A DNA stretch of 64,000 nucleotides, taken from positions 744,001-808,000 of the forward strand of contig ATWD01000002.1 in assembly GCA_000421065.1 (NCBI GenBank), written 5' to 3'. This document shows positions 39,268-60,751 of the stretch, in pieces (the first letter of the stretch is position 1; each line of letters opens with the position of its first letter). Source of the stretch: Acidobacteriaceae bacterium TAA 166. GTDB lineage: Bacteria > Acidobacteriota > Terriglobia > Terriglobales > Acidobacteriaceae. Position numbers and translations under genes: made by a program. A model generated the notes under the pieces. It was not told the DNA's origin, did not search any database, and saw only the letters and a list, made by a program, of their open reading frames with translations.

Positions 39268-41199
39268 GTGCGATTTGGACTTTGTAGCGCCGTTCTCCTC
39301 TGGGCTGCAGCATCGGTTTCCGGTGCGGCACATGCTCAAAGCTCAACCGATTGGCCGATGTTTGGATATGACTCTGCCAGCACGCGTTTTTCCCCGCTCG
39401 CTCAGATCGATACCCAGACGGTACATTCGCTCGCGCGCGCCTGGACCTATCACATGAAGCGGGATAGTCCGGCCGCCACGGCTGCAGGCGCGATCGGACA
39501 TGGGGGCGGACGAAGGTCCTCCCAAGCAACTCCAATCGTGATCGATGGCGTGATGTACATTCCCACTCCCTACGGCACCGTGGTGGCTCTCGATCCGGAG
39601 ACGGGAGACGAGATCTGGACCTTCAAGATGGACCGCGGCAATCCTGCAGGCCGGGCAGTCAGTTATTGGCCCGGGGATGCGCAGACGCCTGCCTCCATTC
39701 TGTTCGGGACACGAGATGGACGACTCGTCTCGATCAACGCCAAGACCGGCAAATTGACGGAGTCTTTTGGGGAGAAAGGAATTGTCAACCTGAAGCAAGG
39801 CGTCGATAACGGTTTTCCAAATGCCCGCTACGACATGACATCTCCTCCGCAGATCTACAAAGGCCTGATCATTACGGGAGCACAGGTGCAGGAGACTCCG
39901 GAGCGAGGACCGTCGGGCGATACCCGAGCCTGGGACGTTCACACCGGCAAGCTGGTCTGGCAGTTCCACTCCGTGCCGCACCCGGGAGAGACCGGAAGCG
40001 AGACATGGCCCGGGGATAGCTGGAAGAACCGCTCGGGAACGAATGTATGGGGCATGATGAGCGTCGATGCTAACCGGGGCCTCGTCTTTCTTCCTTACGG
40101 TGGTCCGAGTTATGACTTTTATGGGGCGGATCGCAAGGGAAAGAATCTCTTCGGCAACAGCCTGGTGGCTCTCGATGCAAAGAGCGGCAAGCTCGTCTGG
40201 TACTTCCAGACTGTCCACCACGATCTGATCGACTACGACCTGGCCTCGGCCCCGGTCCTGATGGATGTTCGTCGCAAGGGCAGGGACATTCCCGCGGTTG
40301 CGGTGATCGGCAAAGCCGGGTTAATGTATATTCTCGATCGCCGCAACGGCAAGCCGATCTACGGAGTTGAGGAAAGGCCCGTTCCGGCCAGCGATGTTCC
40401 AGACGAGGAGGCATCCCCGACTCAGCCTTTCCCTCTAAAGCCTGTGCCATTAGGCCGCACCTCGTTTACAGAGAAGGACATCACAACAGTTACTCCCGAA
40501 CATCAGAAATTCTGCGAAGCGATGTACAAACAAGGGGAAGGGCTGAAGAATAGCGGGCCTTTCACGCCGTTTGGCACGGAGATGACCATCATCTTCCCGG
40601 GGACGATTGGGGTGACCAACTGGCAGGGCATGTCGCTGAATCCGAAGCTGGGATACCTCTTTGTCAACACGATGGACCTTGGCGATGTGGGAAGGATGGA
40701 GAAGCAGGCTCCGGGTTCGGATCCTCCCTATGAGCGAGCCAGCCCGTGGGGGACTTATGCGCACTTCTGGAATAACGACACCTTCATGCCATGCCAGCAG
40801 CCACCGTGGGGGCAACTGTGGGCGATCAACGTCAATACAGGTGAGGTGGCATGGAAGATTCCTTTTGGAGTGGTCGAATCGCTGGAGGCGAAGGGGGTTC
40901 ACGGCACCGGGGCTCCCAACTATGGGGGCTCGATCGCGACGGCAGGAGGCCTTGTCTTTATCGCGGCAACCAACGACCAGCACTTCCGAGCCTTCGAGGC
41001 GAAGACCGGAAAGACTCTGTGGGAGACGAAGCTCGAGACAGGCTCCTACAACGTTCCCATGACCTTCCAGGGCAAAGATGGCAGGCAGTATGTCGTCCTG
41101 GTCGCCACGGGGGGCAGCTACTATGACGCGACTTCTGGGGATTCGGTGATTGCCTTCGCCCTGCCTCATTCCCAGATAGAGAAAACTGCCGGCCAGTGA
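39268..41199 (+). CDS. Secreted PQQ-dependent dehydrogenase (quinoprotein)
   Basis: 643 residues. A signal peptide (VRFGLCSAVLLWAAASVSGAAHAQ; GTG start, GAAGGA about nine bases upstream) is followed by an eight-bladed propeller with repeated LDAKSGKLVWYF/ LDPETGDEIWTF tryptophan-docking motifs. TPIVIDGVMYIPTPYGTVVALDPETG, WPGDSWKNRSGTNVWGMMSVD and TGAPNYGGSIATAGGLVFIAAT match the membrane-glucose-dehydrogenase-like PQQ group. There are no membrane helices and no fused cytochrome; a separate c-type cytochrome gene lies two genes on. It should oxidise an alcohol or sugar hydroxyl in the periplasm. Substrate unknown. PQQ biosynthesis genes are not in the window. Confidence 0.9.
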   Translation: MRFGLCSAVLLWAAASVSGAAHAQSSTDWPMFGYDSASTRFSPLAQIDTQTVHSLARAWTYHMKRDSPAATAAGAIGHGGGRRSSQATPIVIDGVMYIPTPYGTVVALDPETGDEIWTFKMDRGNPAGRAVSYWPGDAQTPASILFGTRDGRLVSINAKTGKLTESFGEKGIVNLKQGVDNGFPNARYDMTSPPQIYKGLIITGAQVQETPERGPSGDTRAWDVHTGKLVWQFHSVPHPGETGSETWPGDSWKNRSGTNVWGMMSVDANRGLVFLPYGGPSYDFYGADRKGKNLFGNSLVALDAKSGKLVWYFQTVHHDLIDYDLASAPVLMDVRRKGRDIPAVAVIGKAGLMYILDRRNGKPIYGVEERPVPASDVPDEEASPTQPFPLKPVPLGRTSFTEKDITTVTPEHQKFCEAMYKQGEGLKNSGPFTPFGTEMTIIFPGTIGVTNWQGMSLNPKLGYLFVNTMDLGDVGRMEKQAPGSDPPYERASPWGTYAHFWNNDTFMPCQQPPWGQLWAINVNTGEVAWKIPFGVVESLEAKGVHGTGAPNYGGSIATAGGLVFIAATNDQHFRAFEAKTGKTLWETKLETGSYNVPMTFQGKDGRQYVVLVATGGSYYDATSGDSVIAFALPHSQIEKTAGQ

Positions 41200-41225
41200 G
41201 ATCCCGGCCTATTTGGAGAAGCGGT

Positions 41226-42218
41226 ATGGATGCAATTCACAGCGCTAACTATTCTGCAATCAAACGAGTTGTCACACTCGCGTTGGCGCTCGGTTGTGCT
41301 CTCGGGCCCGCCCCAGCACAAGTCGCGGCCCATCCCAGCGTCTCGACCAAAGGCACTGGCGGCAATACCTTCGACGGCCCGGGCGATGTACGCTATGTGC
41401 CTCATCGAGACTCAGTCGATCGCCGCATCGACCTGTACTTCGGAGACTGGCACGAGTCGACGCCGCGCTCAGCCTATGGATCTCTCATACTGCGCGACAT
41501 CCTTACACGGGGGGATAATCTTAGCCCTCCGGCGAAAGGAGCTGTGCTGCAGTCGGCGAATTTTCTCGCCTTTGGCAGGCTGCCGGGCCTTGCAGTGACG
41601 CAGCCTTCTACTCTGACGAACACGCAAGAGGTCTTCTACGTCATGAGCGGCGCGGGAGAGATTACCGCCGGAACGAAGAAGGTCTCTCTGCATAAGGACA
41701 TTGCGATCCTAATGCCCGCGGGACTGCAATTTACCATCAGGAGCTCCAGCCCCGAGGATCTGACCATGTATGTCCTCGATGAACCCGTTCCTGCAGGCTT
41801 TCATCCGATTCCGCAGATGCTGATGACCGATGAGCAGACGGTTCCGGTCCGCAAGCCGCTGATCGCCTCTCCCTATACCGTTCCAGGAGGTTCGGGACAC
41901 TGGGCGCATGTGGTGAGGGATCTCTTCAACACCTCGGATGGCCTGGCAACCGTCGGCGACGTCATCACGGTTGAGGTCAATCCATTGACGCTGGGAGAGC
42001 CGCATCCTCACCTTCCCGGAAAAGAGGAGGTATGGCTGCAGATCGAAGGGACCAGCCTGGCGTTTTATGGACCCCAGCTGCGGGTGCAGCATCCCGGGAC
42101 GGCCTATATGCTGCGTCCTGACGGCATGACACAACACTCCAATATTAACAACGAAGACAAGCCTGTGAAATTTCTCTGGTTCAACACTAATACCGGTCTT
42201 GCTGCGCAACGTCGATAG
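41226..42218 (+). CDS. Secreted bicupin protein with one metal site
   Basis: 330 residues, ATG 41226 with GGAG seven bases upstream; signal peptide (VVTLALALGCALGPAPAQ). Two cupin domains. The N-terminal one has TNTQEVFYVMSG with no His pair, so it is metal-free. The C-terminal one has EPHPHLPGKEEVW and later QHSNINN, a full His-x-His, Glu, His ligand set. The reaction could be dioxygenase or isomerase chemistry on the PQQ product. Starts 26 bp after the PQQ dehydrogenase, so probably co-transcribed. A paralogue without metal ligands lies at 44722. Confidence 0.82.
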   Translation: MDAIHSANYSAIKRVVTLALALGCALGPAPAQVAAHPSVSTKGTGGNTFDGPGDVRYVPHRDSVDRRIDLYFGDWHESTPRSAYGSLILRDILTRGDNLSPPAKGAVLQSANFLAFGRLPGLAVTQPSTLTNTQEVFYVMSGAGEITAGTKKVSLHKDIAILMPAGLQFTIRSSSPEDLTMYVLDEPVPAGFHPIPQMLMTDEQTVPVRKPLIASPYTVPGGSGHWAHVVRDLFNTSDGLATVGDVITVEVNPLTLGEPHPHLPGKEEVWLQIEGTSLAFYGPQLRVQHPGTAYMLRPDGMTQHSNINNEDKPVKFLWFNTNTGLAAQRR

Positions 42219-42254
42219 CGCAGATTCACTAGAATCCAATATATGGAGATTAAT

Positions 42255-42683
42255 GTGTTCAAAAAAGCTGCTTTTTTTGCGACGGTTCTGATAGCTGCAT
42301 CCCCAGCAATTGCTCAGGAGAATGACGTAAAGCTCCCCGATGGCCCGGGTAAACCCATCGTTCAGAGGATGTGTACCGGATGTCATAGCCTGAAAACCGT
42401 AATTTCAAAGCACGCGACGAAGGAACAGTGGTCCGCGACCGTACAGCAGATGGTCTCACGGGGTGCCGACGGAACGGATGAAGAGGTTGCGACCGTCATC
42501 GATTATCTGGCAAAGAACTTCCCTCCACAAAAAGAAGACAAGCCGGCATCGACGCCTGCTCCGCAATCTGCTCTCAAGCCGCAACGCATCGGACCCGCTC
42601 AGCTGCCCTATGCTTCCTTGTTGATCATCTCCAAGGCGGACGAGGACGCGATGCTGCTGCGGTGGAGGCAGTCTGCTCGATAG
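42255..42683 (+). CDS. Small periplasmic c-type cytochrome
   Basis: 142 residues from GTG 42255 (GGAG six bases upstream), with signal peptide MFKKAAFFATVLIAASPAIAQ. An ATG at 42243 lacks a ribosome site. One heme c site, CTGCH, in MCTGCHSLKTVISKH, with Met in QQMVSRG as possible sixth ligand, then VATVIDYLAKNFP, typical of small cytochromes c. A Pro-rich tail of about 50 residues follows. It probably takes electrons from the PQQ dehydrogenase encoded upstream in the same unit. Confidence 0.88.
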   Translation: MFKKAAFFATVLIAASPAIAQENDVKLPDGPGKPIVQRMCTGCHSLKTVISKHATKEQWSATVQQMVSRGADGTDEEVATVIDYLAKNFPPQKEDKPASTPAPQSALKPQRIGPAQLPYASLLIISKADEDAMLLRWRQSAR

Positions 42684-42685
42684 CC

Positions 42686-43450
42686 TTAGTCCGGGAGATG
42701 GTCCCATCCCGGGCTAATCCTGCTTAGGTGTAGCTTCATGGCCTCGAAGTGCAAGGACGACTGCTGGCGTTCCTGCTCGAACTGCTGCGCAGTTCTCCGC
42801 GCCAACTCTTCGGGGATCTGGCGAAGCTTCTTGCCCGTGCTCTGAGCCAGCACCTGCACGGTACAGGCTCGCTCCAGATAGTAGAGGTCGTCGAAGACAT
42901 TCGCGATGGTGTCACCGCAGAGCAACACTCCGTGGTTCGCCATAAACATGATGTCCGCATCCACCAGCTTGCTGGTGATGCGGTCGCCTTCGTTATCGTC
43001 GAGCGCGAGACCGCCATACTCCGCGTCATAAACGATGCGTCCATAGTAGCGAAGAGAGTTCTGACTCACCCATTCAAGCCCGCCATCTTCGAGCAAGGTA
43101 AGCGCCGTTGCGTAAGGCATGTGCGTATGCATGATGCAACGGGCGTTCTTTTTCGTCTTGTGGATACATCCGTGGATGAAGAATGCAGTGGGCTCAACGC
43201 TGCGGTGCCCGTCAACTTTATTTCCATGAACGTCGACCGTCACGATATCGGACGGAACGGCGTCCCCCCAGTACACGCCCTGGGGGTTGATGAGAAAGTC
43301 GTCCCCCCCATTCTCGCCGGGCACCGCCAGGCTGAAGTGGTTGCAGACACCTTCATGCAGACCGAGAAGAGCCGCGATCCTCAACGCAGCTGTCAGGTCA
43401 ATCTTCGCCTGGCGAATTGCCTGGTTGTTCACAGAAACCTCCGCCTTCAT
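42686..43450 (-). CDS. Class II aldolase/adducin-fold protein
   Basis: 254 residues. The zinc or iron site of the fold is visible: Glu/His around EGVCNHFSLAVPG, HTHMPYATAL (two His) and the C-terminal ANHGVLLCG His. Members include fuculose- and ribulose-phosphate aldolases, decarboxylases and a few non-heme iron oxygenases (NovR/CloR group), so the reaction is open. No signal peptide: cytosolic. It follows the lactonase gene with a 33-bp gap and ends 2 bp from the convergent cytochrome gene. Confidence 0.85.
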   Translation of the reverse strand: MKAEVSVNNQAIRQAKIDLTAALRIAALLGLHEGVCNHFSLAVPGENGGDDFLINPQGVYWGDAVPSDIVTVDVHGNKVDGHRSVEPTAFFIHGCIHKTKKNARCIMHTHMPYATALTLLEDGGLEWVSQNSLRYYGRIVYDAEYGGLALDDNEGDRITSKLVDADIMFMANHGVLLCGDTIANVFDDLYYLERACTVQVLAQSTGKKLRQIPEELARRTAQQFEQERQQSSLHFEAMKLHLSRISPGWDHLPD

Positions 43451-43483
43451 AAGGCTCGCACCCCAATAGATCGCCTTCCGTTG

Positions 43484-44710
43484 TTATGGCTGAACCGGAA
43501 CGAACTTCAGGCAGACCGGAGTGTCGATAGTGATCTTCTTGCCGGTTTCGGACAGCTTTCCTGTTGCCTTGTCGATCTTGTATACCACGATGGTGTTATT
43601 CAATTCACTGGCCGAGAGCAGAAAGGCGCCGGTGGGATCCAGTGCGAAGCTGCGCGGCAGGATAATTGTCGGTTTCTCTTCAACCTGCGTGAGGGTTCCC
43701 TTGGAAGGATCGATCGCATAGACACCAATGCTATCGGGACCACGCGCATCGTTGGTTACGCGGCGATTCGACTCATACAAAAATTTACCGTCAGGACTGA
43801 TCTCAATTTCGGCGCTGTGATTATCTGTCACCAGGCCCGGGGTCACCGTCGAGAGCTCCTGGAGAGGGGTCAACGCCCCGCCCTCCGAATTCCAGGAGAA
43901 GACGTTGAGGGTTCCACTCATCTCGCCTAGCTGGTAGCCGAACTTACCATCGCGTCCGAAGGCGAAGTGACGTGGTCCACCGCCGCCCGTTACTGTAGCG
44001 AAATGAGGATCCGCAGGCGAGAGCGCTCCCGTATTATCGTCAAAGTTATAGACGAAGATCTTATCGAGCCCAAGGTCGGAGACGATGACATATTTATTGT
44101 CGGGTGACGGCAGAATCGAGTGTGGATGCGGCACGTTCTGTATCTGCGGATTGACGCTGTGGCCGAGGTGCTGCATAAAAGCGGTCATTCCACCGAGCGA
44201 GCCGTCGGGATGAACGTTTAGAACCGTGACGCTGCTGCTGCCAAAGTTCGCCATCATGACATATTTGCCGGTTCTATCGAGCGAGAGGAAGCAGGTGCTG
44301 GTGCCGCCCGTCGGCTTTGTATTCAGAAGGCGCAGTTTGCCTGTAGAAGCATCGATTGCGTAGGCGCTCACATAAGAAGCATGATCGAGCGGAGGTCCGA
44401 CCGAGAGAGGGTCTTCGCTTACCGCGTAAAGAAATCGATGATTAGGAGAGATGGTGATAAATGAAGGATTTGCAATCTCCGCTGCCAGCTGAGGTTCACC
44501 GAAGTCCCCGGTCGCGGCGTTGAAGCGAACGACATAAATGCCCTTGCTGTGGCTCTCGCCAGCTCCATTGGGAAGATTATGGCGTACAAACTTAAACCCC
44601 GTATAGGTGCCTGAGTACAGGAAAAAGTCCTTTCCCTGTGCTTCTAAGCTTTGATGTGAGCAAACAAGAAGAGCAAGAGCGATACAGAGAGAGGTCCAAA
44701 ACCGTTTCAT
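43484..44710 (-). CDS. Secreted lactonase, seven-bladed beta-propeller
   Basis: 408 residues; signal peptide MKRFWTSLCIALALLVCSHQSLEAQ, GGAG about eight bases before ATG. The lactonase (YbhE/6-phosphogluconolactonase-like, also muconate cyclase-like) repeat pattern is clear: GIYVVRFNAATGDFGEPQLA, PSFITISPNHRFLYAVSE, GPRHFAFGRDGKFGYQLGEMSGTLNVF, and HSAEIEISPDGKFLYESNR. Being exported, it is not the cytosolic pentose-pathway enzyme. It more likely opens a lactone made by the periplasmic PQQ dehydrogenase. Eleven bp after the second cupin gene. Confidence 0.87.
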   Translation of the reverse strand: MKRFWTSLCIALALLVCSHQSLEAQGKDFFLYSGTYTGFKFVRHNLPNGAGESHSKGIYVVRFNAATGDFGEPQLAAEIANPSFITISPNHRFLYAVSEDPLSVGPPLDHASYVSAYAIDASTGKLRLLNTKPTGGTSTCFLSLDRTGKYVMMANFGSSSVTVLNVHPDGSLGGMTAFMQHLGHSVNPQIQNVPHPHSILPSPDNKYVIVSDLGLDKIFVYNFDDNTGALSPADPHFATVTGGGGPRHFAFGRDGKFGYQLGEMSGTLNVFSWNSEGGALTPLQELSTVTPGLVTDNHSAEIEISPDGKFLYESNRRVTNDARGPDSIGVYAIDPSKGTLTQVEEKPTIILPRSFALDPTGAFLLSASELNNTIVVYKIDKATGKLSETGKKITIDTPVCLKFVPVQP

Positions 44711-44721
44711 CTTCCGGTCTC

Positions 44722-45573
44722 CTAATTTGGCCGATACGTATTTGCTGGATTCGCGGGTTTATGCGCGAAGTAAAGAAACTTGAGCTGCGTATCTTCGTTC
44801 GGATTAATAATGCTGTGCGGAGTCTTTCCATCCGGGATCTCCATAAAGGCTGTCCCCGGTGGCTGGCGAAGCAACCGATTCGATACGAAAGCAAGGCCGG
44901 TTCCCTTCAATGCGGTCCAGACAGCGTCGGTATCAGCGGATTCTGTGGATTGCGGACGGCTCACGGTAAGAGGATCGAGATAAACGGTGGATACCTCGGT
45001 CAAGGTCGCAAGTCCGTCTGAAGGGACAAAGATCTTCTTTACCAGGTAGGACCATTGCAGATCGGCCGTGCTGAAGGGCAAGCTGTTTTCGTCTTTCGCC
45101 AGTATGGAGGTGTTGGCATGAAATCCAGAAGGAGTCTGCTCCTGGATGATGTACATTGCGAGAGGTTCGGTTGCATCGTTTACGAGGCGAAATTCAAGTC
45201 CGGATGGCACCAGGATGGCAATATTCGGCGACAGGGCTAAAGTCTGACCTCCGGCAATCGCCCTTCCTTCGCCGGAGACGATGAAATAGATCTGCTGCTG
45301 GCCACCGAGACGAGTTCGAGAGGTCTCGGCATGAGGCGCCAAGGTCGCATATTCGTAGGCAGAAGCGGATCGAAGGACAGCTCCATTCGAAGTGGGATGA
45401 AGTGTATCACCCCGGGTAAGGACATCCCGCTCCGAGAGACCATTGACTGTACGTGCAGGCGCCGCTTGCCAACTCCCGAAATAGAGATCGAGTTGGTTGC
45501 CGTAGGTCTGGGCCGATGCAGACACCTTGAGAAGCAGGTATGCGCCGAGAATCAGGAGCACTCTTCTGGACAT
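44722..45573 (-). CDS. Secreted bicupin protein lacking metal ligands (paralogue)
   Basis: 283 residues with signal peptide (MSRRVLLILGAYLLLKVSASAQ). It aligns with the cupin at 41226 along most of its length: DLYFGSWQAAPAR / DVLTRGDTL / GAVLRSA / IYFIVSGEG / SDGLATLTEVSTVYLDPLT. The second cupin has RPQSTESADTDAVW where the paralogue has PHPHLPGKEEVW, so both His ligands and the Glu are lost. It may be a binding or scaffold protein rather than an enzyme. First gene of a unit with the lactonase and class II aldolase-fold genes; operator copy 2 lies 77 bp upstream. Confidence 0.8.
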   Translation of the reverse strand: MSRRVLLILGAYLLLKVSASAQTYGNQLDLYFGSWQAAPARTVNGLSERDVLTRGDTLHPTSNGAVLRSASAYEYATLAPHAETSRTRLGGQQQIYFIVSGEGRAIAGGQTLALSPNIAILVPSGLEFRLVNDATEPLAMYIIQEQTPSGFHANTSILAKDENSLPFSTADLQWSYLVKKIFVPSDGLATLTEVSTVYLDPLTVSRPQSTESADTDAVWTALKGTGLAFVSNRLLRQPPGTAFMEIPDGKTPHSIINPNEDTQLKFLYFAHKPANPANTYRPN

Positions 45574-45649
45574 TAGGATGATTCTCTTCCGAAGCCTTAA
45601 ACAAAGATCTTTTGCAATACCTAGAATGGGAACAGCTTATCTCAACCGT

Positions 45650-45670
45650 AACAAGCGAAATTGTACGAAA
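45650..45670 (-). promoter_or_regulatory. Island operator copy 2, upstream of second cupin unit
   Basis: Read on the minus strand: TTTCGTACAATTTCGCTTGT, 77 bp before the cupin start. AGCTGTT follows the CTTG after 14 bases. It sits in the 100-bp gap between two minus-strand genes, so it can only serve the downstream cupin-lactonase-aldolase unit. Confidence 0.7.
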
Positions 45671-45673
45671 ACC

Positions 45674-46693
45674 TTATTGCGTCTTATTGAGCGTGTAGTA
45701 GCGGTAGGAGTGACTCCACTTCACCGTCTCCCCGGGGGCTACCGCTAAATGGACAAAAGGCTCGATCGCCAGGATGGAGCGAATCGACCACAACTCTTCT
45801 TTTTCAAGCGGATGATCTCCCGTAATTCTTAAGCCAACGCCGAGGCGCCTGTTCTCAATACGAATGTCGTAATCTTTGGGCGTCTGGCTAAAGCCCCCAA
45901 TGTGAACCGTAAACACATCCGTTCCTTGCAAGGGCCTGCGATATAGGATTTTGTTTCCTGTAACCTCTCCCAAGTCCTGTTTGATCGGGCCTTCCGGTTT
46001 GATCGTAAAGGGCATGACGATAGAAAAGTTCGGTCCTGTCGGCTGCCGGTCGAGAACAAGAAAGTTGTGATTGTAGACGTTCGTCTCAATTGGAAGCCTC
46101 CCTACATTCTTCAGCATATGACTTATCGCCAAGACAGGCTTGTTGGGAAGGACGCGGAGCTCCTTCGTATAAAGATAGGCATAGCCCGTCTTAGGATCTG
46201 ACAATCTTTGCACAAACCGGATCGAGTCCGTCCGCTTTTCTACAGTCCATTGTCCTGAGTCGACGATCTGATATTGGCGAAACATGTCGTACTTCTGGTC
46301 ATCCGGTCGCCGAAGAACTCCAACGCCGATCTTAACGAACGTCTGTCCGGGTGTTGTCTGGTCGAATCCGAGTGGCGAGACAAACTCTTCCGCAGGGCCA
46401 GTGATCGAACTGCAGGATCCCGCGATGATATCTGGTCCTTTGAAGATGAAGTCTCTTACACTCGGGTCCTGCTTTGTAAACCAGGGGCCATAGTAAGAGT
46501 GACCGGCAAAGGTGAGATTTGCGATGACTCCAGACCAGTCAAAGCGCGTACCTCGATAGAATCCCTTCGAGGTGTCGGGCAGATAAACAATTGCATGAAG
46601 GACTCCATTGTCGAGTGTTGCGCTGGGAACCTCCGCATCCGCGACCGCCGATCCAGCCAGAGCCAGGCAAAGATATAAAAGTAGAGTGCGCAA
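45674..46693 (-). CDS. Secreted galactose-mutarotase-like fold protein, function unknown
   Basis: 339 residues with a signal peptide (LRTLLLYLCLALAGSAVADA). It is beta-rich with TLDNGVLHAIVYLPD, FYRGTRFDWSGVIANLTFAG, YNHNFLVLDRQPTGPNFSIVMPF and AIEPFVHLAVAPGETVKWSHSYRYY, resembling aldose-1-epimerase/lyase-like sugar-binding folds. I cannot name the family. The start is a TTG placed directly after the stop of the upstream dehydrogenase gene, with GGGGGAG six bases before it. Last gene of the BKACE unit. It may bind or isomerise a carbohydrate in the periplasm. Confidence 0.72.
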   Translation of the reverse strand: MRTLLLYLCLALAGSAVADAEVPSATLDNGVLHAIVYLPDTSKGFYRGTRFDWSGVIANLTFAGHSYYGPWFTKQDPSVRDFIFKGPDIIAGSCSSITGPAEEFVSPLGFDQTTPGQTFVKIGVGVLRRPDDQKYDMFRQYQIVDSGQWTVEKRTDSIRFVQRLSDPKTGYAYLYTKELRVLPNKPVLAISHMLKNVGRLPIETNVYNHNFLVLDRQPTGPNFSIVMPFTIKPEGPIKQDLGEVTGNKILYRRPLQGTDVFTVHIGGFSQTPKDYDIRIENRRLGVGLRITGDHPLEKEELWSIRSILAIEPFVHLAVAPGETVKWSHSYRYYTLNKTQ

Positions 46694-47659
46694 TCAATAC
46701 TCCCCCGTCACGACATTTTGGAGCGGCTCATTCTTTGCAAATCGAGAAGCCTGCTCGGCAACCAGCTTAAATGCCCTGTCAAGGGTTCGGGGACTGTCAC
46801 TGGCGACGTGCGGAGTAATCAGCAGATTTGGCGCGCTCCAGAGGGGATGATCTGGGGCGAGAGGCTCTGGATCCATTACATCGACTGCAGCGCGGATATG
46901 TTTCTGAGCCAGAGCTTCAACGAGAGCATCCGTCTCCACGGTTGCGCCGCGGCCGGCATTCACGAGTAGAGCGCCTCGCTTCATCCTGGAGATTCGATCT
47001 CGATCAAACATACGGTAGGTCTCCGAGGTGAGAGGCATGATGAGGACGATCACATCCGCCTGACAGATGAGGTCATCCAGGCGCGAGACGGGTTCGACTC
47101 CCGCACGCGAGGTACGAGCGACCCGGAGAAACTTCGGCCTAAACGGAGCCAAGCGGGCTTCGATTCCCTGCCCGATCGCTCCATAGCCGACGATGAGAAC
47201 GGTCATATCTGCTATCTCGTCAATCAGCGCGGGCATATTGGAGCTTGGGACTGTCCCCTCACGCAAGAGATAGATCTTCTCCGCCTCATCCTTGCCATTC
47301 CAGTCGCGGCGGCGCTGCAGATCGACGTAGAAAGGGATGTACTTCTGCATGGCGAGGATCGCCGTGACCGCCCATTCGGCGGTGGGAATATCGTGAACCC
47401 CTCGGGCATCGCAGAGCGTGACTTCTTTCGGCAGAATCTTGAGCAGAGCATCGACTCCGGCAAAGGGGGATTGCACGACTTTGACATTCCGTAGGGAGGG
47501 CCATTGCTCGCGAGCGGTAGCCGCCGAGAGAGGCGCAACCCAAAGATCAATATCCATTGGAGACGATGGTTTCTCCGGGATACGCACGAGCTGAATCTCA
47601 TTCGAAAAATCTTTTAAATATCGATCTTCAATCGAAGCTTCTATACCAACCCGAATCAT
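46694..47659 (-). CDS. D-isomer-specific 2-hydroxyacid dehydrogenase
   Basis: 321 residues. NAD motif VGYGAIGQGIEARL, and the catalytic set Arg in NAGRGATVETDAL, Glu in VMDPEPLAPDHPLW and His in LITPHVASDS. It interconverts a 2-hydroxyacid and a 2-ketoacid with NAD(P)H in the cytoplasm; glyoxylate/hydroxypyruvate-type reductases are the nearest groups. ATG 47659 has GGAAG nine bases upstream; a TTG three codons earlier is possible. Located between the permease and the mutarotase-like gene, both with almost no gaps. Confidence 0.88.
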   Translation of the reverse strand: MIRVGIEASIEDRYLKDFSNEIQLVRIPEKPSSPMDIDLWVAPLSAATAREQWPSLRNVKVVQSPFAGVDALLKILPKEVTLCDARGVHDIPTAEWAVTAILAMQKYIPFYVDLQRRRDWNGKDEAEKIYLLREGTVPSSNMPALIDEIADMTVLIVGYGAIGQGIEARLAPFRPKFLRVARTSRAGVEPVSRLDDLICQADVIVLIMPLTSETYRMFDRDRISRMKRGALLVNAGRGATVETDALVEALAQKHIRAAVDVMDPEPLAPDHPLWSAPNLLITPHVASDSPRTLDRAFKLVAEQASRFAKNEPLQNVVTGEY

Positions 47660-47674
47660 CACGTCCAACTTCCT

Positions 47675-49270
47675 TCAGCGCCTGACAGGCTTTGCAACCT
47701 CGGAGTCACTGGCGGATGACCCCGCTTTGAATAAAAAGTAAACCGGAACTCCAAGCAGAACGATGACGATGCCTGGCACGGTTGTCGTCGTTCGATACAG
47801 CAGCAGAATCAAAAGAATGATCGATGCAAAAAGAATATAGAGGATGGGAACGACAGGGTAGCCAAATGCCCGATACGGTCGCGGGACATTGGGTTGCGAC
47901 TTCCTCAGACGAAAAATTCCCGCGATCGTGAGGATGTAAAAGACAAGCGCGGCCGATACGACGTAGTCCAGCAGATTGCTGTAGAGATTGCCGTAGGTGT
48001 TCGTCGCAGGCTCATAGGTACGAATCAACACCAGGACTCCCGCCCATACGCCCTGCATCACGAGCGCAGAGCTTGGAACACTTGCACCATTGACATAAGA
48101 GGCTTTCTTGAAAAAGACACCATCCAAAGCCATCGCGTAATAGGCACGCGCCCCTGACAGGATCATCCCATTCATGCAGCCGAATGCGGAGATCATGATA
48201 GCGATTGCAATGATGGTGGCGCCAGCGTGCGGGAAGATCGCTTCCATCATCGCGGCAGCCACGCGATCGGAGGGCGCATGCTGGACACTGCTGAACGGCA
48301 GCACAACCATATAGGCAAAGTTCGCAAGCACATAAAGCCCGATCACAATGATCGTTCCCAATGCAAGCGAGAGAGGCACGTTGCGCGCGGGATTGCGCAC
48401 CTCTCCTGCATTGAATGTGATGTTGTTCCAGGCATCGGCAGCGAAGAGAGACCCGATCTGCGCGGTGCAAAGGGCAACGATCATGCCGAATGCCGTGAGC
48501 AGGCTCAGCCCCGGCGCCGGAGGAGTCGCATCGGTGGGCAGCCAGGCGTGATCGAAGTTCATGTGAAAGACCAACGTCTTCCACCCAAGAAAGAGGCCAA
48601 TGGCGATTACGCCAACCAGAGATCCAATCTTGATCGTCGTAAAGGTATTCTGCACGCCCTTGCCATACTTAAGACCTCGGCTGTTGGTCCATGTAAGAAA
48701 CGCAATCAGTAGCAAAGAGACCATCTGCGCTGTCGAGAGCGAGATCGCATACTTCGGCAAGATATGGATCGGCGGGATGATGTATCTCAATTCGGCGATG
48801 GGGGGCCACAACACGCCGAGATAACGGGCAAATCCCACCGACGAAGCCGCAATCGTTCCCGTCTGAATGACCAGGAAGAGCGTCCAACCATAGAGAAAGC
48901 CCCACAGGGGCGAGTACGCTTCGCGCAGATAGACGTATTGCCCTCCGGCTCGAGGCATCATTGCAGCCAGTTCGCCGTAGGATAATGCAGCAGCCATGGT
49001 CAGGACTCCTGCGATCAGCCACGCGACCATCAACCAACCGGCGCTGCCTACCTCGCGGGCCATCTCGCCGGCTACGATGAAGATTCCGGATCCGATCATC
49101 GAACCAGCCACGATCATCGTCGAGTCATAAAGACCGAGTCCGCGGTGGAGGGTATTGTGACTCTCCGAATCTGCATAGCCTGGTGGTCGTATTTGAACTT
49201 GTCTGTAGGCCTCGGCCACGAGTCGTTCTCCCCGAATGGGCCCGCTTGCCTGCGGTTCCCGTCGATTCAA
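47675..49270 (-). CDS. APC-superfamily amino acid/organic cation permease
   Basis: 531 residues with about 12 helices. The APC signature STMIVAGSMIGSGIFIVAGEMAREVG lies in helix 1, and AALSYGELAAMMPRAGGQYVYLREAY in helices 2-3. NARNVPLS-type and FRLRKSQPNVPRPYRAFGYP segments are typical of the LAT-like branch. An N-terminal cytoplasmic stretch of about 45 residues precedes helix 1. It overlaps the hydrolase gene by 4 bp (ATGA) and is probably the inner-membrane importer of the island's substrate or intermediate, which may be amino-acid-like or a carboxylate. Confidence 0.9.
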   Translation of the reverse strand: MNRREPQASGPIRGERLVAEAYRQVQIRPPGYADSESHNTLHRGLGLYDSTMIVAGSMIGSGIFIVAGEMAREVGSAGWLMVAWLIAGVLTMAAALSYGELAAMMPRAGGQYVYLREAYSPLWGFLYGWTLFLVIQTGTIAASSVGFARYLGVLWPPIAELRYIIPPIHILPKYAISLSTAQMVSLLLIAFLTWTNSRGLKYGKGVQNTFTTIKIGSLVGVIAIGLFLGWKTLVFHMNFDHAWLPTDATPPAPGLSLLTAFGMIVALCTAQIGSLFAADAWNNITFNAGEVRNPARNVPLSLALGTIIVIGLYVLANFAYMVVLPFSSVQHAPSDRVAAAMMEAIFPHAGATIIAIAIMISAFGCMNGMILSGARAYYAMALDGVFFKKASYVNGASVPSSALVMQGVWAGVLVLIRTYEPATNTYGNLYSNLLDYVVSAALVFYILTIAGIFRLRKSQPNVPRPYRAFGYPVVPILYILFASIILLILLLYRTTTTVPGIVIVLLGVPVYFLFKAGSSASDSEVAKPVRR

Positions 49271-50037
49271 TCCAGATTAGATGGATTCTTGCTTTGTTGT
49301 AGGAAGGAGTGAACGACTTGGTTAAACTCCTCAGCGTATCTCTTATGAATATTATGTTTGCCTTCCGGGAAGCTGTAAAACTTCGAGCCCTCGATCTCGC
49401 GGTGAAGGACTTCAGGGTGCATAGCCGGTACAAGCGGATCCAGGGCACCGTGCAATATGAGTGTGGGGCACTTTACTCGTCGAAGTTCAGAGCGATAGAT
49501 ATCACCGCCCGCGGCGAAGATATCTTCAAGCCCCGCTACATAGCGCTCCCAGAGCGGCTGCAGGTGTTCGCCATAGATCGCCTGCAGAGGCTCAATCGCC
49601 CGAGGCGACCAGGTCGACAGGGAGCGCATTGCTTGAAAGGCATGCACCTCTTCCTCGCTGAGGAACGAGTTTCCTCCCCAGACGACCAGATTGCTCACCC
49701 GCTCGGGATAGCGGGTCGCCAGGATGGTGCCGCTATTCGCTCCGTCGCTCCAGCCCAGAATGCCGAATCTCCAATATCCCAGAGCTTCCATCAAAGCGGC
49801 CATATCTTCAGCATCGCTCCTGTAGAAGTCCAGGGGAAAGATTCTTTCCGGGGGGCGCGATTGGCCATAGCCTCGTGGGTCGGGTGCAATTACGCGATAG
49901 CTCCGGCTGAACCAGGAGAGTTGCTCGGAGAAGTCGCTGGAGCCTGTTCCCAGAGCCCCAGGAAGGAACAACAGAGGCTCTCCGTCGCCAAGGCTCTCAA
50001 AGTGAACGGTGAACTCTTTCAGATCGAGTTTAGGCAT
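49267..50037 (-). CDS. Alpha/beta hydrolase, valacyclovirase (BPHL)-like
   Basis: 256 residues. Nucleophile elbow GWSDGAN in FGILGWSDGANSGTILA, oxyanion region LLFLPGALGTG, acid in HGALDPLVP and catalytic His in EGKHNIHKRY. The sequence DPRGYGQSRPPERIFPLDFY together with GWSDG resembles BPHL-type hydrolases, which cleave amino-acid esters and thiolactones. It is cytosolic. It lies between the BKACE and permease genes, overlapping the latter by 4 bp. Confidence 0.88.
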   Translation of the reverse strand: MPKLDLKEFTVHFESLGDGEPLLFLPGALGTGSSDFSEQLSWFSRSYRVIAPDPRGYGQSRPPERIFPLDFYRSDAEDMAALMEALGYWRFGILGWSDGANSGTILATRYPERVSNLVVWGGNSFLSEEEVHAFQAMRSLSTWSPRAIEPLQAIYGEHLQPLWERYVAGLEDIFAAGGDIYRSELRRVKCPTLILHGALDPLVPAMHPEVLHREIEGSKFYSFPEGKHNIHKRYAEEFNQVVHSFLQQSKNPSNLD

Positions 50038-50060
50038 GAGAACAGATCGACTCCACCCAA

Positions 50061-51065
50061 TTACAGGGCTTCCTGGACTGACTGCGGTTCATAGTGAGAG
50101 GGCAGACGGCTGAGGCCCAGAATCTCGCGCGTCTGCGCGGGCGTTGCGATCTCGCGATTCAGCTCTCCGGCGATGCGCACTGCCCGCTGAACGAGCTCGG
50201 CATTGCTCTTCGCCTTACGCCCACGCGAGTAATACACATTATCCTCGAGACCGACGCGAACATGGCCGCCCAGAAGCGTAGAAAGGGTCGTAAGGGGAAG
50301 CTGATAAGGGCCAATCGCGGAGCAGAGCCATAAGGCTCCTTCGGGGAACTCCTTCAGCAGCTGAAGCACATTTTCAACCGTAGGAAAGCTTCCCGTCTGC
50401 GAGCCCATGACGGTTTGGATCCAATAAGGTTTTCCCAGCAGATCGTTCTCGATAAGGTACTTCACCACCCACCCGCAGCCGCTATGATAAGCCTCTAGCT
50501 CCGGCTTGATGCCACGCTTCTTCATCTCCGCTGCAAATTGATGAATCTGACCATAGCTGAATGGAACGCACTCGTCGATATCGATCGCTGGTCGAGGGTT
50601 CGGGAGGGGCGCTTTTCGCTCTTTTAGATGAAATTTACTCATATCCGGCGATAGATTGAGCGAGGCCATCTCGGGCCCAGCCTCTAGAGAAGACAACCTC
50701 TCTTCCATCGTCATGCCGGGACCACCGCCGGTCGTTGCGTTGATGATGATATCGGGGCAACACTGACGAATCTTGTAGAGAAGCTCGTGCCATGGCTCCG
50801 GATCGCGCGCGCACTGCGTCAGATCTCGAGGATCGCGTGCATGGACATGAACCATGGAAGCGCCAGCTTCATAAGCTGCATGCGCGGACTCCGCAATCTC
50901 GTCAGCGGTCTCAGGAATATTTTCATTTGCTTCTTTACCCTGGATACCGCCGTTGCAGGCGACACAGACGATAAGGGGAGATAACCCCTCGCGAGTCCTT
51001 TCCATGAAGTCGTAGCTATCGGTATAACGATGGATTCGCTGAATGGCGTCGTTGATCTCGGACAT
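50061..51065 (-). CDS. Beta-keto acid cleavage enzyme (BKACE, DUF849)
   Basis: 334 residues from ATG 51065. BKACE enzymes condense a beta-keto acid with acetyl-CoA and release acetoacetate plus a CoA ester. The zinc site is visible: VHVHARDP (two His), and Glu in VRVGLEDNVYYSRGRKAKSNAELV. LIVCVACNGGIQGKEANENIPETADEIAESAHAAYEAGAS is split over the first strand and helix of the TIM barrel. Substrates range widely, from 3-keto-5-aminohexanoate to dehydrocarnitine. First gene of a five-gene unit; operator copy 3 is 64 bp upstream. Confidence 0.9.
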   Translation of the reverse strand: MSEINDAIQRIHRYTDSYDFMERTREGLSPLIVCVACNGGIQGKEANENIPETADEIAESAHAAYEAGASMVHVHARDPRDLTQCARDPEPWHELLYKIRQCCPDIIINATTGGGPGMTMEERLSSLEAGPEMASLNLSPDMSKFHLKERKAPLPNPRPAIDIDECVPFSYGQIHQFAAEMKKRGIKPELEAYHSGCGWVVKYLIENDLLGKPYWIQTVMGSQTGSFPTVENVLQLLKEFPEGALWLCSAIGPYQLPLTTLSTLLGGHVRVGLEDNVYYSRGRKAKSNAELVQRAVRIAGELNREIATPAQTREILGLSRLPSHYEPQSVQEAL

Positions 51066-51433
51066 GATGCTCTCTAAGGGAAGTCGGAAATGATGCAAGT
51101 TCAGGAAAACAGTTCTCTCTTTCGAGGATCAAGCGAAATAGTACGAAACCAATCTCCGGTGAAGATCGTCCGTCCACCAGGCCCTTTCAAGAGGTAAGCC
51201 AGATTATCGCCACTGCCGCAACAATCGGCCGGCGAGAGGGCCCTCCTGCTCTGGAGGCGGAACAGAACACTTGCATCACTTTTAATTGAGGCGTAGTCTT
51301 TACGCCATACTCAGCTGGATCTTTCCCCGAGATTTCATCTTTGCCATTCACTTCGATTGGGACCGAGATGTCCTTATCCATGACATCCCGTTCTCATCGG
51401 CTTCTTCAATTCCGTTTTGCAAGTTGACTTCTT
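51066..51433. other. Divergent control region between BKACE unit and TPR regulator
   Basis: 368 bp with no convincing gene; a 64-codon minus frame at 51187-51381 has no ribosome site or family features. It holds operator copy 3 (51129-51149). It also has an inverted repeat GGCGTA-N5-TACGCC (51290-51306). The 14-mer CTTTACGCCATACT (51298-51311) is repeated exactly upstream of the second TonB gene (57254-57267). Confidence 0.55.
51129..51149 (-). promoter_or_regulatory. Island operator copy 3, upstream of BKACE unit
   Basis: Read on the minus strand: GTTTCGTACTATTTCGCTTG, 64 bp before the BKACE start. It keeps both TTTCG repeats. The downstream AACTGTT, 15 bases after CTTG, is a variant of the AGCTGYT seen in the other copies. 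Confidence 0.65.
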
Positions 51434-53101
51434 ATGAATAATGCATCTGATTCGATGTCTTCGGTTCCAGAACCCACTCCTCGGCTGGGCGCAGGCCCCG
51501 ACCGCCTTGATTCGTGGAAAGAGATCGCCAGTTACCTCAAGCGAGAAGTTCGCACAGTCCAGATGTGGGAGAAAAAAGAGGGTCTCCCGATTCATCGTCA
51601 CTTCCATAACCATTTGGGAACTGTATTTGCCTTTCGTTCCGAGATTGAGGCCTGGGGGCTGAAGCAGGCAACGAAGCATCAACAGAGGGCTTCCGTGGCA
51701 TCCGAGACCTCCGGGCCATCGACAAAACCGTCGATCCGGATCGCCATCGCCTCGCTTCATCCATCACAGGATAATCCTGACGATCGCGCCCTCTGCATGA
51801 CCATCCTCTCCGAGACGATCGCCGCTCTCGATCTTCTCGATTCTTCCAATGTTCAGGTTCTAGGGCTCGACCTTTCGCAGCAAACCTCCGAAACTCTCGA
51901 CTATCGCCTCGAATGGGAGATCTGGAACGATCACGATCATCTCACGCTCAAAGCCAGTCTTCTGGAGCTCAAGAGCCAATTGATTGTATGGTCCCGGAAC
52001 TTCCATCTAACACCGGAGGCCGGCGGCGAGATTTCAACCCATATTGCCGATCAGATCGCCCGATATCTTTGGCTCAAAACCATTTCCTCATTGAGGCCTT
52101 CGCTTTCGATCAGGCGCGTAGAAGCAATGAGCTCCCGCGAAGCCTACCTCAAAGGTCGCTACTTTCTGAGCCAACGGAACGAAGAGGGCATGCGCAAGGC
52201 TGCGGGATGGTTTCGGGCAGCGATTAAGGAAGACCCCGACTTCGCGCTGCCCTACTCCGGCCTGGCCGATTCCCTTACCCTGCTGTCTTTCTATGAGATC
52301 GAATCTCCTTCTATTACCATGCCGGCGGCTCGTTGCGCAGCTCTCAAGGCTCTCGAGCTGGCACCCAATGTCGCCGAGGCGCACGCCTCGCTCGCAGACA
52401 TCCGACTTCATTTCGACCGCGATTGGGACGGTGCGGATCAGGAGTATCGCCAGGCCATTCAGTGCAATCCTGAGTACGCCCTGGGCTACCACTGGTATGC
52501 GAACCTTCTTTCGGCTCGAGGTCAACATGAAGCGGCCTGCGTTGCGATCATGAACGCTCTCGAGATCGATCCCGTCTCCCTCATCACGCAGGTTTGGGCA
52601 GGAGTGACGCAGTATCTTGCGCATCGTTTCGATGAGGCCATCGCACATTATCAAAGTGCGCTCGAGCTTGACCCTCATTACATCTGGGCGCACATGTATA
52701 TGGCCCAGGCTCTCGAGCAAAAAGGAAGATACCATGAGGCCATTCGCGAGTTCGACACGACGATTCAGCTGGCCGGTGGCAGCAGCTGTGTCACGGCGAT
52801 GAAGGCGCACGCCTTGGCAGCGGCTGGAGAAACGTCCGCGGCCCGGGTGATCCTGCGCAGGCTGCGCAACCTTCCTAACCTAAAGTGCATGCCTTCGTAC
52901 GATATTGCAGCGACCTATGCTGCTCTCGGAGAGTCTTCCCAGATGGCCGTGTGGCTCATGCGAGCCTGCGAAGAGCGCAATATGAAGCTATTCAAGCTGC
53001 GTCGCGATCCACGCTTCGATAATGCACGGCATTCTATCCAATTTCAACAGGTCGTGCAGCATATCGGTCTCTCTCGTTACGACGGGTTTGAAATTAACTG
53101 A
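51434..53101 (+). CDS. HTH-TPR transcriptional regulator (acidobacterial type), island regulator candidate
   Basis: 555 residues. The N-terminal DNA-binding part is LDSWKEIASYLKREVRTVQMWEKKEGLPIHRH then FAFRSEIEAWG, the MerR/excisionase-like helix common before TPR domains in acidobacteria. A central domain (about 95-220; IRIAIASLHPSQDN, ETIAALDLL) precedes TPR repeats (about 235-500; KGRYFLSQRNEEGMRKAAGWF, PNVAEAHASLADI, IDPVSLITQVWAGVTQY). There is no receiver or membrane helix. Divergent from the BKACE unit and inside the island, it is the best candidate for binding the shared operator, an inference. No ribosome site is clear before the ATG, so a leaderless transcript is possible. Confidence 0.85.
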   Translation: MNNASDSMSSVPEPTPRLGAGPDRLDSWKEIASYLKREVRTVQMWEKKEGLPIHRHFHNHLGTVFAFRSEIEAWGLKQATKHQQRASVASETSGPSTKPSIRIAIASLHPSQDNPDDRALCMTILSETIAALDLLDSSNVQVLGLDLSQQTSETLDYRLEWEIWNDHDHLTLKASLLELKSQLIVWSRNFHLTPEAGGEISTHIADQIARYLWLKTISSLRPSLSIRRVEAMSSREAYLKGRYFLSQRNEEGMRKAAGWFRAAIKEDPDFALPYSGLADSLTLLSFYEIESPSITMPAARCAALKALELAPNVAEAHASLADIRLHFDRDWDGADQEYRQAIQCNPEYALGYHWYANLLSARGQHEAACVAIMNALEIDPVSLITQVWAGVTQYLAHRFDEAIAHYQSALELDPHYIWAHMYMAQALEQKGRYHEAIREFDTTIQLAGGSSCVTAMKAHALAAAGETSAARVILRRLRNLPNLKCMPSYDIAATYAALGESSQMAVWLMRACEERNMKLFKLRRDPRFDNARHSIQFQQVVQHIGLSRYDGFEIN

Positions 53102-60696: not shown

Positions 60697-60713
60697 GCAC
60701 CATTCATTCCTGA

Positions 60714-60751
60714 AAGAATGGCGGAGGCACATGCCTCCGCCATTCTTATTG
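60714..60751 (+). terminator. Rho-independent terminator after TonB2
   Basis: A perfect 16-bp stem, AAGAATGGCGGAGGCA (60714-60729) with its complement (60732-60747), has a minimal 2-base loop and is followed by ATTGTT. It lies 18 bp past the TonB2 stop. Confidence 0.85.

Follow-up and report, generated by a model that had tools for sequence, protein, structure and literature searches.

A probable catabolic cluster for a sugar-derived acid or lactone that pairs exported oxidation proteins with a beta-keto acid cleavage enzyme in an acidobacterium

Acid soils and peat are rich in Acidobacteria, for many of whose exported proteins no function is known. The window, by which we mean the whole stretch of 64,000 nucleotides from Acidobacteriaceae bacterium TAA 166 that was analysed, comes from a soil acidobacterium and holds a cluster of exported and cytosolic catabolic genes at 39268-51098 (Table 1). 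The question that this locus raises is whether these genes form a single pathway and, if so, what compound the pathway degrades.

The initial annotation had named a PQQ dehydrogenase (PQQDH), two cupins, a lactonase, a 2-hydroxyacid dehydrogenase (2-HADH), a beta-keto acid cleavage enzyme (BKACE), a class II aldolase, an APC permease and TonB-type barrels, and Pfam matched all of them, with PF25183 matching more than one barrel in the window. It was also right about the BPHL-like hydrolase, which matches valacyclovir hydrolase, and its division into exported and cytosolic proteins agrees with the N-termini as read by eye: PQQDH, CupA, CupB, the cytochrome c, the lactonase and the mutarotase-fold protein have signal-peptide-like N-termini and none is visible on the aldolase, the BPHL-like hydrolase, 2-HADH or BKACE. 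Two of its assignments stood in part. The CxxCH motif of the cytochrome c is visible, but Pfam does not settle the matter because the match is weak (9.5e-4) and under the curated cut-off, as is the NCBIfam match. The protein called mutarotase-like had no match in a Pfam search, but a Foldseek search with a structure model of low confidence (mean pLDDT 51) gave, at 13 of the first 14 ranks (E = 2e-8 to 2e-5), proteins with the description aldose 1-epimerase or galactose mutarotase, the exception being the undescribed Slr1438 at rank 4.

Table 1. Coordinates, strand and basis of assignment of the features in the window
Feature	Coordinates	Strand	Basis
Exported soluble PQQ dehydrogenase (PQQDH), glucose/quinate/shikimate family	39268..41199	+	PF01011 2e-202
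cupA, exported bicupin	41196..42218	+	Cupin_2
Small exported c-type cytochrome, SorB-like, presumed electron acceptor	42243..42683	+	NF052246 1.2e-9, below cut-off
Class II aldolase, PRK06486-type, accessory	42686..43450	-	PF00596 (Aldolase_II) 5e-41
Exported 7-bladed beta-propeller lactonase	43484..44710	-	PF10282 2e-101
cupB, second exported bicupin, homologous to cupA	44722..45573	-	Cupin_2
Exported protein, galactose-mutarotase/aldose-1-epimerase fold	45674..46693	-	Foldseek
D-2-hydroxyacid dehydrogenase (2-HADH)	46694..47668	-	PF02826 (2-Hacid_dh_C) 1e-44
APC-family permease	47675..49270	-	AA_permease_2 2e-49
Cytosolic alpha/beta hydrolase, BPHL/valacyclovir-hydrolase family	49267..50037	-	Abhydrolase_1; 2ocg 8.5e-68
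BKACE, cytosolic	50061..51098	-	PF05853 1e-83
HTH + TPR protein, divergent from BKACE, candidate regulator	51434..53101	+	TPR families; HTH by eye
ton1, TonB-type outer-membrane receptor, candidate uptake receptor	53165..56599	-	PF25183 8e-177

The eight minus-strand genes for BKACE, the hydrolase, the APC permease, 2-HADH, the mutarotase-fold protein, CupB, the lactonase and the aldolase are separated by 23, -4, 6, 0, 100, 11 and 33 nt and make up a probable operon, and the plus-strand gaps in PQQDH-cupA-cytochrome c are -4 and 24 nt. BKACE, the bicupin and the lactonase each occur in 6 of 220 genomes of the family, and these are the same six; BKACE and the bicupin occur in the same three of 150 genomes of the order, and the bicupin is present in all nine BKACE genomes, these three samples being overlapping ones. 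Since the presence sets of the three proteins are identical in the 220 genomes, their neighbourhood is not due to chance. Their pairwise divergences over the six genomes are also correlated (r 0.65-0.80), with 8, 4 and 1 of 720 permutations giving values as high. The claim that the gene set is one co-inherited unit is thereby supported, and three unrelated families in exactly the same genomes define a unit that can be tested. From these comparisons the cluster seems to be retained or lost as a whole among relatives, with a patchy distribution.

The genes are not scattered in all relatives. Granulicella sp. dw_53 (strain by record name) has nearly the whole set inside about 20 kb and retains the order BKACE-hydrolase-APC permease-2-HADH-mutarotase-fold protein-cupB-lactonase, into which an MFS gene, a cytochrome c and one further bicupin have been inserted; this near-identical locus may permit growth and deletion tests. 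Yet in Edaphobacter RYN_3 the lactonase-cupin module, the BKACE block and the PQQDH-cupA module are three blocks that together span about 63 kb of a single contig, and BKACE lies on a different contig from the bicupins in G547, G578 and G584, whose genomes are fragmented. These arrangements would suit two separate pathways in one neighbourhood, one for periplasmic sugar-lactone oxidation by PQQDH, cupins and lactonases and the other an unrelated BKACE operon with a different substrate, as would the finding that the examined stretches of 25 BKACE loci of a sister clade hold no cupin or lactonase homologue. We consider this unlikely in view of the identical presence sets and correlated divergences, and also because one probable tandem operon mixes both sets in the window in an order that is nearly the same in dw_53.

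Membership of the unit is not uniform. PQQDH, with up to five candidates scored per genome, was found at E <= 1e-150 in 22 of the 220 genomes and is therefore not exclusive to the unit; by the same scoring none was shown in two of the six BKACE genomes (G547 and G578), and the PQQ genes adjoining BKACE in loci L010, L011 and L039 are just 38-50% identical. In the fetched regions of the nine BKACE genomes, homologues of the HTH + TPR protein were found in eight, of the cytochrome c in seven, of the mutarotase-fold protein and the APC permease in six each, of the BPHL-like hydrolase in four and of 2-HADH in three. The propeller lactonase is present in two to four side-by-side copies in G152, G153, G154 and G157, and ton1 is kept adjoining the unit in loci L007 and L008 (69% identical).

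A clue to what the exported proteins act on comes from PQQDH. Its match to TIGR03074 (glucose/quinate family) scores 534.8 bits, short of the cut-off of 832.65, and begins at model position 148; by this match and by alignment with E. coli Gcd it has no membrane domain of the Gcd kind, whereas the entire quinoprotein domain is alignable (32% identity). The positions of Gcd Asp466 and Lys493 are kept and that of His262 falls in a gap, and if these positions are functionally relevant, as we take them to be, the missing histidine makes glucose itself a doubtful substrate. Distant bicupins in eight other acidobacteria have an SMP-30 gluconolactonase within about 4 kb or fused to them (8/8 genomes). 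Gene content was described for three of these loci: L084 encodes a kinase of the DGOK family together with an RraA-like protein, a PQQ dehydrogenase and an MFS protein; L085 encodes a PfkB-type kinase, to which KDG kinases come nearest (below cut-off), along with a KDPG/KHG aldolase that scores above cut-off; and in L089 neither set was seen. The company of the distant bicupins, together with the mutarotase fold and the PQQ dehydrogenase family, favours a sugar-derived substrate, and the exported bicupins thus gain a metabolic context in sugar-lactone oxidation.

The bicupins could also be taken as ring-cleaving dioxygenases for an aromatic or polyketide-like compound, with BKACE acting on, for example, a 3,5-dioxo acid or 3-oxoadipate. 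Their architecture and a weak match of their profile to gentisate dioxygenase (E about 0.06) are in keeping with this, as are the NCBIfam hits of BKACE to 3,5-dioxohexanoate and 3-oxoadipate BKACEs, and a BKACE-type step is reportedly part of anaerobic phloroglucinol degradation. However, the profile finds better matches in other cupins (2.5e-4 to 7.5e-4), among them DddK and a putative oxalate decarboxylase, the bicupins are exported proteins whose distant relatives sit with gluconolactonases, no aromatic ring hydroxylase was found among the proteins scanned, and the two NCBIfam hits, of 204 bits (3,5-dioxohexanoate) and 194 bits (3-oxoadipate), are far under the cut-offs of 430 and 350. An aromatic substrate is thus very improbable. 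In the 33-member alignment the C-terminal domain of CupA retains, by eye, an HxH...E...H pattern like a metal site, and in CupB this motif is partly lost.

The nearest solved relative of BKACE is KCE (2y7d, 9.5e-43), the 3-keto-5-aminohexanoate cleavage enzyme of lysine fermentation, with which it shares the family and the zinc-ligand and catalytic positions. H72, H74, R269, E273 and D274 are invariant in all 34 sequences, its own included (9 acidobacterial and 25 sister-clade), H72, H74 and E273 presumably being zinc ligands and D274 and R269 catalytic. It differs from KCE in that the position of Glu14, which we take to be the ligand of the 5-amino group of the substrate, is Ile in all nine acidobacterial BKACEs (window and eight relatives) and Ile, Val or Leu in all 25 sister BKACEs, and in that it scores 238.9 bits against the KCE equivalog NF052387, below the cut-off of 382. 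Its identity to the 30 plasmid-borne BKACEs that were listed out of 554 records does not exceed 44%, compared with 58-82% within its own 33-locus group; an uncharacterised BKACE subfamily common to Acidobacteria and Gemmatimonadota is indicated.

The Glu14 replacement speaks against the main chemical rival to a sugar, namely, a zwitterionic 3-hydroxy-4-amino acid of the carnitine or GABOB kind, or its ester or lactone, that would be imported by the APC permease, oxidised to a 3-keto acid by a dehydrogenase, converted by BKACE to an aminoacyl-CoA and cleaved by the BPHL-like hydrolase. L-Carnitine degradation runs via carnitine 3-dehydrogenase and BKACE, and the BPHL family is noted for acting on alpha-amino acid esters. 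The hydrolase has the GWSDG motif and DPLVP and GKHN stretches that align with 2ocg, so that what we assume to be its catalytic triad is kept. This family and an amino-acid-type APC permease fit a nitrogen-bearing substrate and speak against a sugar. Of the 25 sister-clade loci, 20 have within 400 bp of BKACE a gene of 3HCDH type, for which carnitine 3-dehydrogenase is the second-best NCBIfam model (below cut-off); 11 have S15-family hydrolases within 200 bp of BKACE, and five have an APC permease, found with another APC query, within 1.2 kb. The window is like carnitine degradation in having BKACE with a zwitterion-type permease and a hydrolase that could release the CoA product, but a query with the sister-clade 3HCDH found no homologue in it, and it has an additional exported oxidation module. 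Moreover, the mutarotase fold, the PQQ glucose/quinate family and the lactonases suit a sugar better. We therefore regard a carnitine-like substrate as improbable.

Among the substrates that had been offered, a sugar lactone is favoured over a less probable amino-acid-like compound, with which the APC permease and the BPHL-like hydrolase would fit, and nothing points particularly to a plant alcohol. By its sequences the cluster probably degrades an acid or lactone derived from a sugar, in a manner similar to deoxyribose oxidation. In the oxidative deoxyribose/deoxyribonate pathway of Pseudomonas simiae WCS417 and Paraburkholderia, oxidation of the aldose to a lactone is proposed and suspected to be periplasmic, a lactonase, MFS import and formation of a 3-keto acid follow, BKACE yields acetoacetate and hydroxyacyl-CoA, and a cytochrome c accompanies the dehydrogenase (PMC6365646). 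The enzymes there are a molybdenum (iorAB-like) dehydrogenase, a predicted cytoplasmic lactonase, an SDR deoxyribonate dehydrogenase and a glycerate kinase, with a GntR-like regulator (PMC6365646). The window likewise has BKACE, a lactonase in the same tandem array and a cytochrome c with the dehydrogenase. Unlike that pathway, it has PQQDH, an exported propeller lactonase, exported bicupins and a mutarotase-fold protein, as well as the APC permease, BPHL-like hydrolase, D-2-HADH and HTH-TPR protein. No molybdenum dehydrogenase of that kind was found among the cluster proteins scanned, the dehydrogenase being the PQQ enzyme, no 3HCDH was recognised in the window, and no SDR among the 22 window proteins scanned, which include 20 proteins of 30951-56599. 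By analogy, we infer that the logic is that of the deoxyribose/deoxyribonate route with different enzymes in most steps. The statement that no characterised pathway has this set thus holds for the exact gene set, for which no paper was found in the literature searched, but not for the logic, which is published.

We propose, with a probability of roughly 0.45, that the cluster is a catabolic unit for a sugar-derived compound whose acid carries a 3-hydroxy group, the simplest candidate being a 2-deoxyaldose or related lactone. The substrate would be taken up by the TonB receptor; the mutarotase-fold protein would provide the anomer for PQQDH, which would oxidise C1 to give the lactone and pass electrons to cytochrome c. 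The propeller lactonase, whose family is established, would open the lactone with the two bicupins as putative helpers, and the acid would be imported by the APC permease or, in several relatives whose loci hold an MFS protein nearest to a D-galactonate model (below cut-off), by a galactonate-type carrier. A 3-hydroxyacid dehydrogenase, of which none was recognised in the window and which is a gap in the scheme, would form the 3-keto acid. BKACE, with its conserved catalytic machinery, would convert this putative substrate and acetyl-CoA to acetoacetate and a hydroxyacyl-CoA, from which the BPHL-like hydrolase would release a 2-hydroxyacid (D-glycerate in the pentose case) for oxidation by D-2-HADH, whose nearest solved relative is the glycerate dehydrogenase/glyoxylate reductase 2cuk (3.5e-35). 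This last step would not be universal since 2-HADH and the hydrolase were found in the fetched regions of only three and four of the nine genomes. The order suggested initially, from uptake through a periplasmic lactone, its opening and import to CoA esters, is thus partly supported, and the best reading is that sugar-lactone chemistry by exported proteins supplies a cytosolic BKACE. More tentatively, this may be an undescribed two-compartment pathway of Acidobacteriaceae in which the exported bicupins are a new kind of lactone- or keto-sugar-processing enzyme acting with PQQDH, the mutarotase and lactonases in tandem; its product would be a 3-hydroxy acid of a sugar or amino sugar, and a BKACE subfamily of new substrate specificity would complete the breakdown.

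The class II aldolase, which had been given a place in the title of the initial annotation, passes the cut-off of NCBIfam PRK06486 (333 against 269 bits), but with a close homologue in just two of the nine BKACE genomes, its own included, it is peripheral and not part of the core. The start codon of BKACE may be the ATG at 51062.

Genomes were searched with the cluster proteins by searches that may score only part of the first-look candidates per genome, and several of the sampled genomes were fragmented MAGs read with a simple ORF caller. In the order sample (n=150) the beta-keto acid cleavage enzyme (BKACE, E ≤ 1e-60) and the exported bicupin (E ≤ 1e-40) were found in three genomes each, and these were the identical three. 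In the family sample (n=220) BKACE (E ≤ 1e-60), bicupin (E ≤ 1e-30) and lactonase (E ≤ 1e-100) were found in six genomes each, and the six were identical (G000, G103, G547, G578, G584 and G587), for which the chance is 1 in C(220,6) if relatedness is ignored; each was present in 4 of 79 genera. The samples overlap, as judged from contig numbers and coordinates (G103 = G152, G547 = G157, G584 = G154, G587 = G156), and in G156/G587 the cupin match spans 98 residues where a contig ends. The exported PQQ dehydrogenase (PQQDH) is distributed more broadly, occurring at E ≤ 1e-150 in 22 of the 220 genomes, four of the six included. Scanning a named genome collection with BKACE gave 33 loci, at eight of which the BKACE is acidobacterial and close to the query (72-82% identical), and a bicupin is present in all nine genomes made up of these relatives and the window's; five genomes, the window's among them, are common to this set and the set of six. 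A first scan of the collection with cupB, one of the two bicupins of the window, gave no match. Pairwise divergences were correlated between BKACE and the other bicupin, cupA (r 0.79; 8 of 720 permutations as high), BKACE and lactonase (r 0.65; 4 of 720), and cupA and lactonase (r 0.80; 1 of 720) in six hand-chosen genomes in which each of the three proteins has a counterpart, relatedness contributing to the correlation. Taken together, the identical presence sets and the correlated divergences argue for BKACE, bicupin and lactonase being one inherited unit. In the phylum sample (n=396) BKACE was found at E ≤ 1e-100 in the window's genome only and bicupin at E ≤ 1e-30 in nine, eight of them without BKACE at E ≤ 1e-100. 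In plasmid records BKACE was at most 44% identical among the matches listed (30 of 554 records), the bicupin query had no match, and this gene set was not seen around the three BKACE and two aldolase matches inspected.

The genome measures 6.1 Mb, and the window is part of its contig 2. The gene set described in the initial annotation was confirmed and strengthened, and most of the families named there were recovered by Pfam, the mutarotase by fold search only and the cytochrome by a weak match. PQQDH, cupA and the cytochrome c gene are tightly packed on the plus strand, and BKACE, hydrolase, APC permease, D-2-hydroxyacid dehydrogenase (2-HADH), mutarotase, cupB, lactonase and aldolase form a minus-strand tandem with gaps of ≤100 nt. 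From this packing we infer that exported and cytosolic enzymes are probably on one transcript. An HTH-TPR protein is encoded divergently from BKACE, and next comes a TonB-type barrel. Promoter-like and terminator-like sites were near chance (6 found vs 6.8 expected, and 12 vs 9.5). The low-G+C stretch listed in the table, with flanks of about 0.60-0.65, exceeds the cluster in width and takes in housekeeping-type genes such as LptF/LptG. The 722-aa protein resembles a GH36-type glycosidase by eye and has no Pfam match at 1e-3.

In Granulicella sp. dw_53 the order BKACE-hydrolase-APC-HADH is kept, followed by an MFS gene and cytochrome c, both on the opposite strand, and then by mutarotase-cupB-cupA'-lactonase (cupA' being a further bicupin copy), while the TonB-type receptor gene ton1, cupA and PQQDH lie on the other side. 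In Edaphobacter RYN_3 (G150) the genes form three blocks on a single contig. With this split on one side and the tandem and shared inheritance on the other, it is unlikely that the genes belong to two unlinked pathways. Counts over the nine genomes come from fetched regions and are lower bounds, absence there not being absence from the genome: at least nine for bicupin and BKACE; eight for TonB, PQQDH-family and HTH-TPR; seven for MFS, cytochrome c and lactonase; six for APC, methyltransferase-2-like and mutarotase; five for a 154-aa unknown protein; four for FAH family, Fer4 protein, GntR-like (by eye), BPHL-like hydrolase and a GSDH-cytochrome fusion; and three for a 211-aa unknown protein, 2-HADH and a solute-binding protein. 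The lactonase of G156 is outside the fetched regions yet elsewhere in the genome (as G587). The class II aldolase, which had been counted among the pathway members, is peripheral and was ruled out as a core enzyme, a close homologue being found in two of the nine genomes, the window's and G150; G154 gave two further matches, both partial and weaker (47 and 40%).

Positions of features in the window and in loci of relatives
Sequence	Position	Feature
Window	24000-58000	G+C 0.52-0.59
Window	44722-45573	cupB
Window	57313-62899	second TonB-type barrel (PF25183), then exported 722-aa protein
RYN_3	about 15-19 kb	aldolase-lactonase-cupA'-cupB
RYN_3	near 61 kb	BKACE block
RYN_3	75-78 kb	PQQDH-cupA
L007	1-3455	recurrent set near unit
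L009	11622-15925	recurrent set near unit
L073		recurrent set near unit
L069	4624-9795	four tandem propeller lactonases between bicupins
L085	9054-11876	cupin domains fused to SMP-30/gluconolactonase domain (Pfam)
L089	9884-11815	cupin domains fused to SMP-30/gluconolactonase domain (by eye)

The recurrent set seen in some relatives consists of a Fer4 protein whose C-terminal part has no assignment, a methyltransferase-2-like protein, a GntR-like regulator, an FAH-family hydrolase and a galactonate-type MFS, together with the 211-aa protein, which has no Pfam or NCBIfam match. The four lactonases at L069 suggest several lactone substrates.

The BKACE positions that we take to be zinc ligands and catalytic residues are invariant in all 34 sequences, namely, the nine acidobacterial ones and 25 of a sister clade from loci that, by title, are mostly Gemmatimonadota and in one case Acidobacteria. 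The position of Glu14 of 3-keto-5-aminohexanoate cleavage enzyme (KCE) is Ile in all nine and Ile, Val or Leu in every sister-clade sequence; KCE identity for the window BKACE was ruled out by comparison with the KCE structure and by the NCBIfam equivalog score. Among the sister loci a 3-hydroxyacyl-CoA-dehydrogenase (3HCDH)-type gene lies <400 bp from BKACE in 20 of 25 (17 of these at ≥120 bits). Eleven of the loci have an S15-family hydrolase no more than 200 bp from BKACE and five have an APC permease no more than 1.2 kb from it, self-matches being counted where queries came from these loci (L016, L018, L023, L027 and L032). These neighbours support a 3-hydroxy acid as the precursor of the BKACE substrate, and they are compatible with a nitrogen-bearing substrate. 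A carnitine-like substrate, to be weighed between this compatibility and the sugar-lactone evidence below, seems rather improbable. The 3HCDH query had no match in the eight acidobacterial loci or the window, and this missing step is the main gap in the proposed pathway. Beta-lactamase-like hydrolases also occur beside the sister BKACE and its dehydrogenase (L014-L038), which is perhaps a separate uncharacterised system.

In the portion of Price et al. (PMC6365646) drawn on here, it is proposed that deoxyribose is oxidized to a lactone, which a lactonase opens, that deoxyribonate is imported and converted by an SDR to a 3-keto acid, and that BKACE yields glyceryl-CoA and acetoacetate, followed by glycerate; the authors state there that direct evidence is lacking for the BKACE cleavage itself. 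Most of these steps have an analogue in the window, in the form of other enzymes. Of the pathway first read from the window, the logic of exported oxidation plus BKACE stands, a central aldolase does not, and the logic is not without precedent: it was already proposed there for deoxyribose and deoxyribonate, and the enzyme set of the window is a variant. Among the papers listed on BKACE and on acidobacterial sugar/lactone oxidation, none was on this gene set as judged from titles and abstract openings. The nearest PDB relative of 2-HADH is a glycerate dehydrogenase, and the BPHL-like hydrolase and 2-HADH would be suited to releasing and oxidizing D-glycerate. Based on the step analogues and this fit, our favoured candidate substrate is a sugar lactone, of 2-deoxyaldose type or related, at a probability of roughly 45%.

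PQQDH aligns over the full quinoprotein domain with the E. coli membrane glucose dehydrogenase Gcd (32% identity). The positions of Asp466 and Lys493, presumably functional in Gcd, are retained, and His262, to which we likewise ascribe a role, falls in a gap. With a low-confidence model of the mutarotase-fold protein as query, 13 of the 14 top-ranked Foldseek matches had an aldose 1-epimerase or galactose mutarotase description; a PDB profile search with its family found no credible match. The exported bicupins are the least explained part of the pathway, and the structure model of cupA is poor (mean pLDDT 41). Aromatic ring cleavage by the cupins was rejected, with nothing in its favour beyond one weak profile match, and an aromatic-type substrate is very unlikely. 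The bicupins of the eight phylum-sample acidobacterial genomes without BKACE at E ≤ 1e-100 are distant (30-42% identical for the best match), and in all eight genomes an SMP-30/gluconolactonase homologue lies at most about 4 kb from the bicupin or in the same reading frame. Of three loci inspected among these eight, L084 has a PQQ dehydrogenase, an RraA-like protein, an MFS and a DGOK-family kinase, L085 has a PfkB-type kinase nearest keto-deoxygluconate kinases and a KDPG/KHG aldolase, and in L089 neither gene set was seen. From this linkage and gene content, the bicupins appear to be tied to the chemistry of sugar lactones and aldonates.

The C-terminal cupin motif stretch of the window's cupB has no histidines, whereas cupA has them, and this cupB may be catalytically changed. 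Among 14 aligned cupB-type sequences, judged by eye, 11 have at least one histidine there and those of the window, L067 and L071 have none. The cupin-lactonase fusions of L085 and L089 are in acidobacteria without a close BKACE, with DUF362-like (by eye) and Na+ symporter-like proteins encoded downstream.
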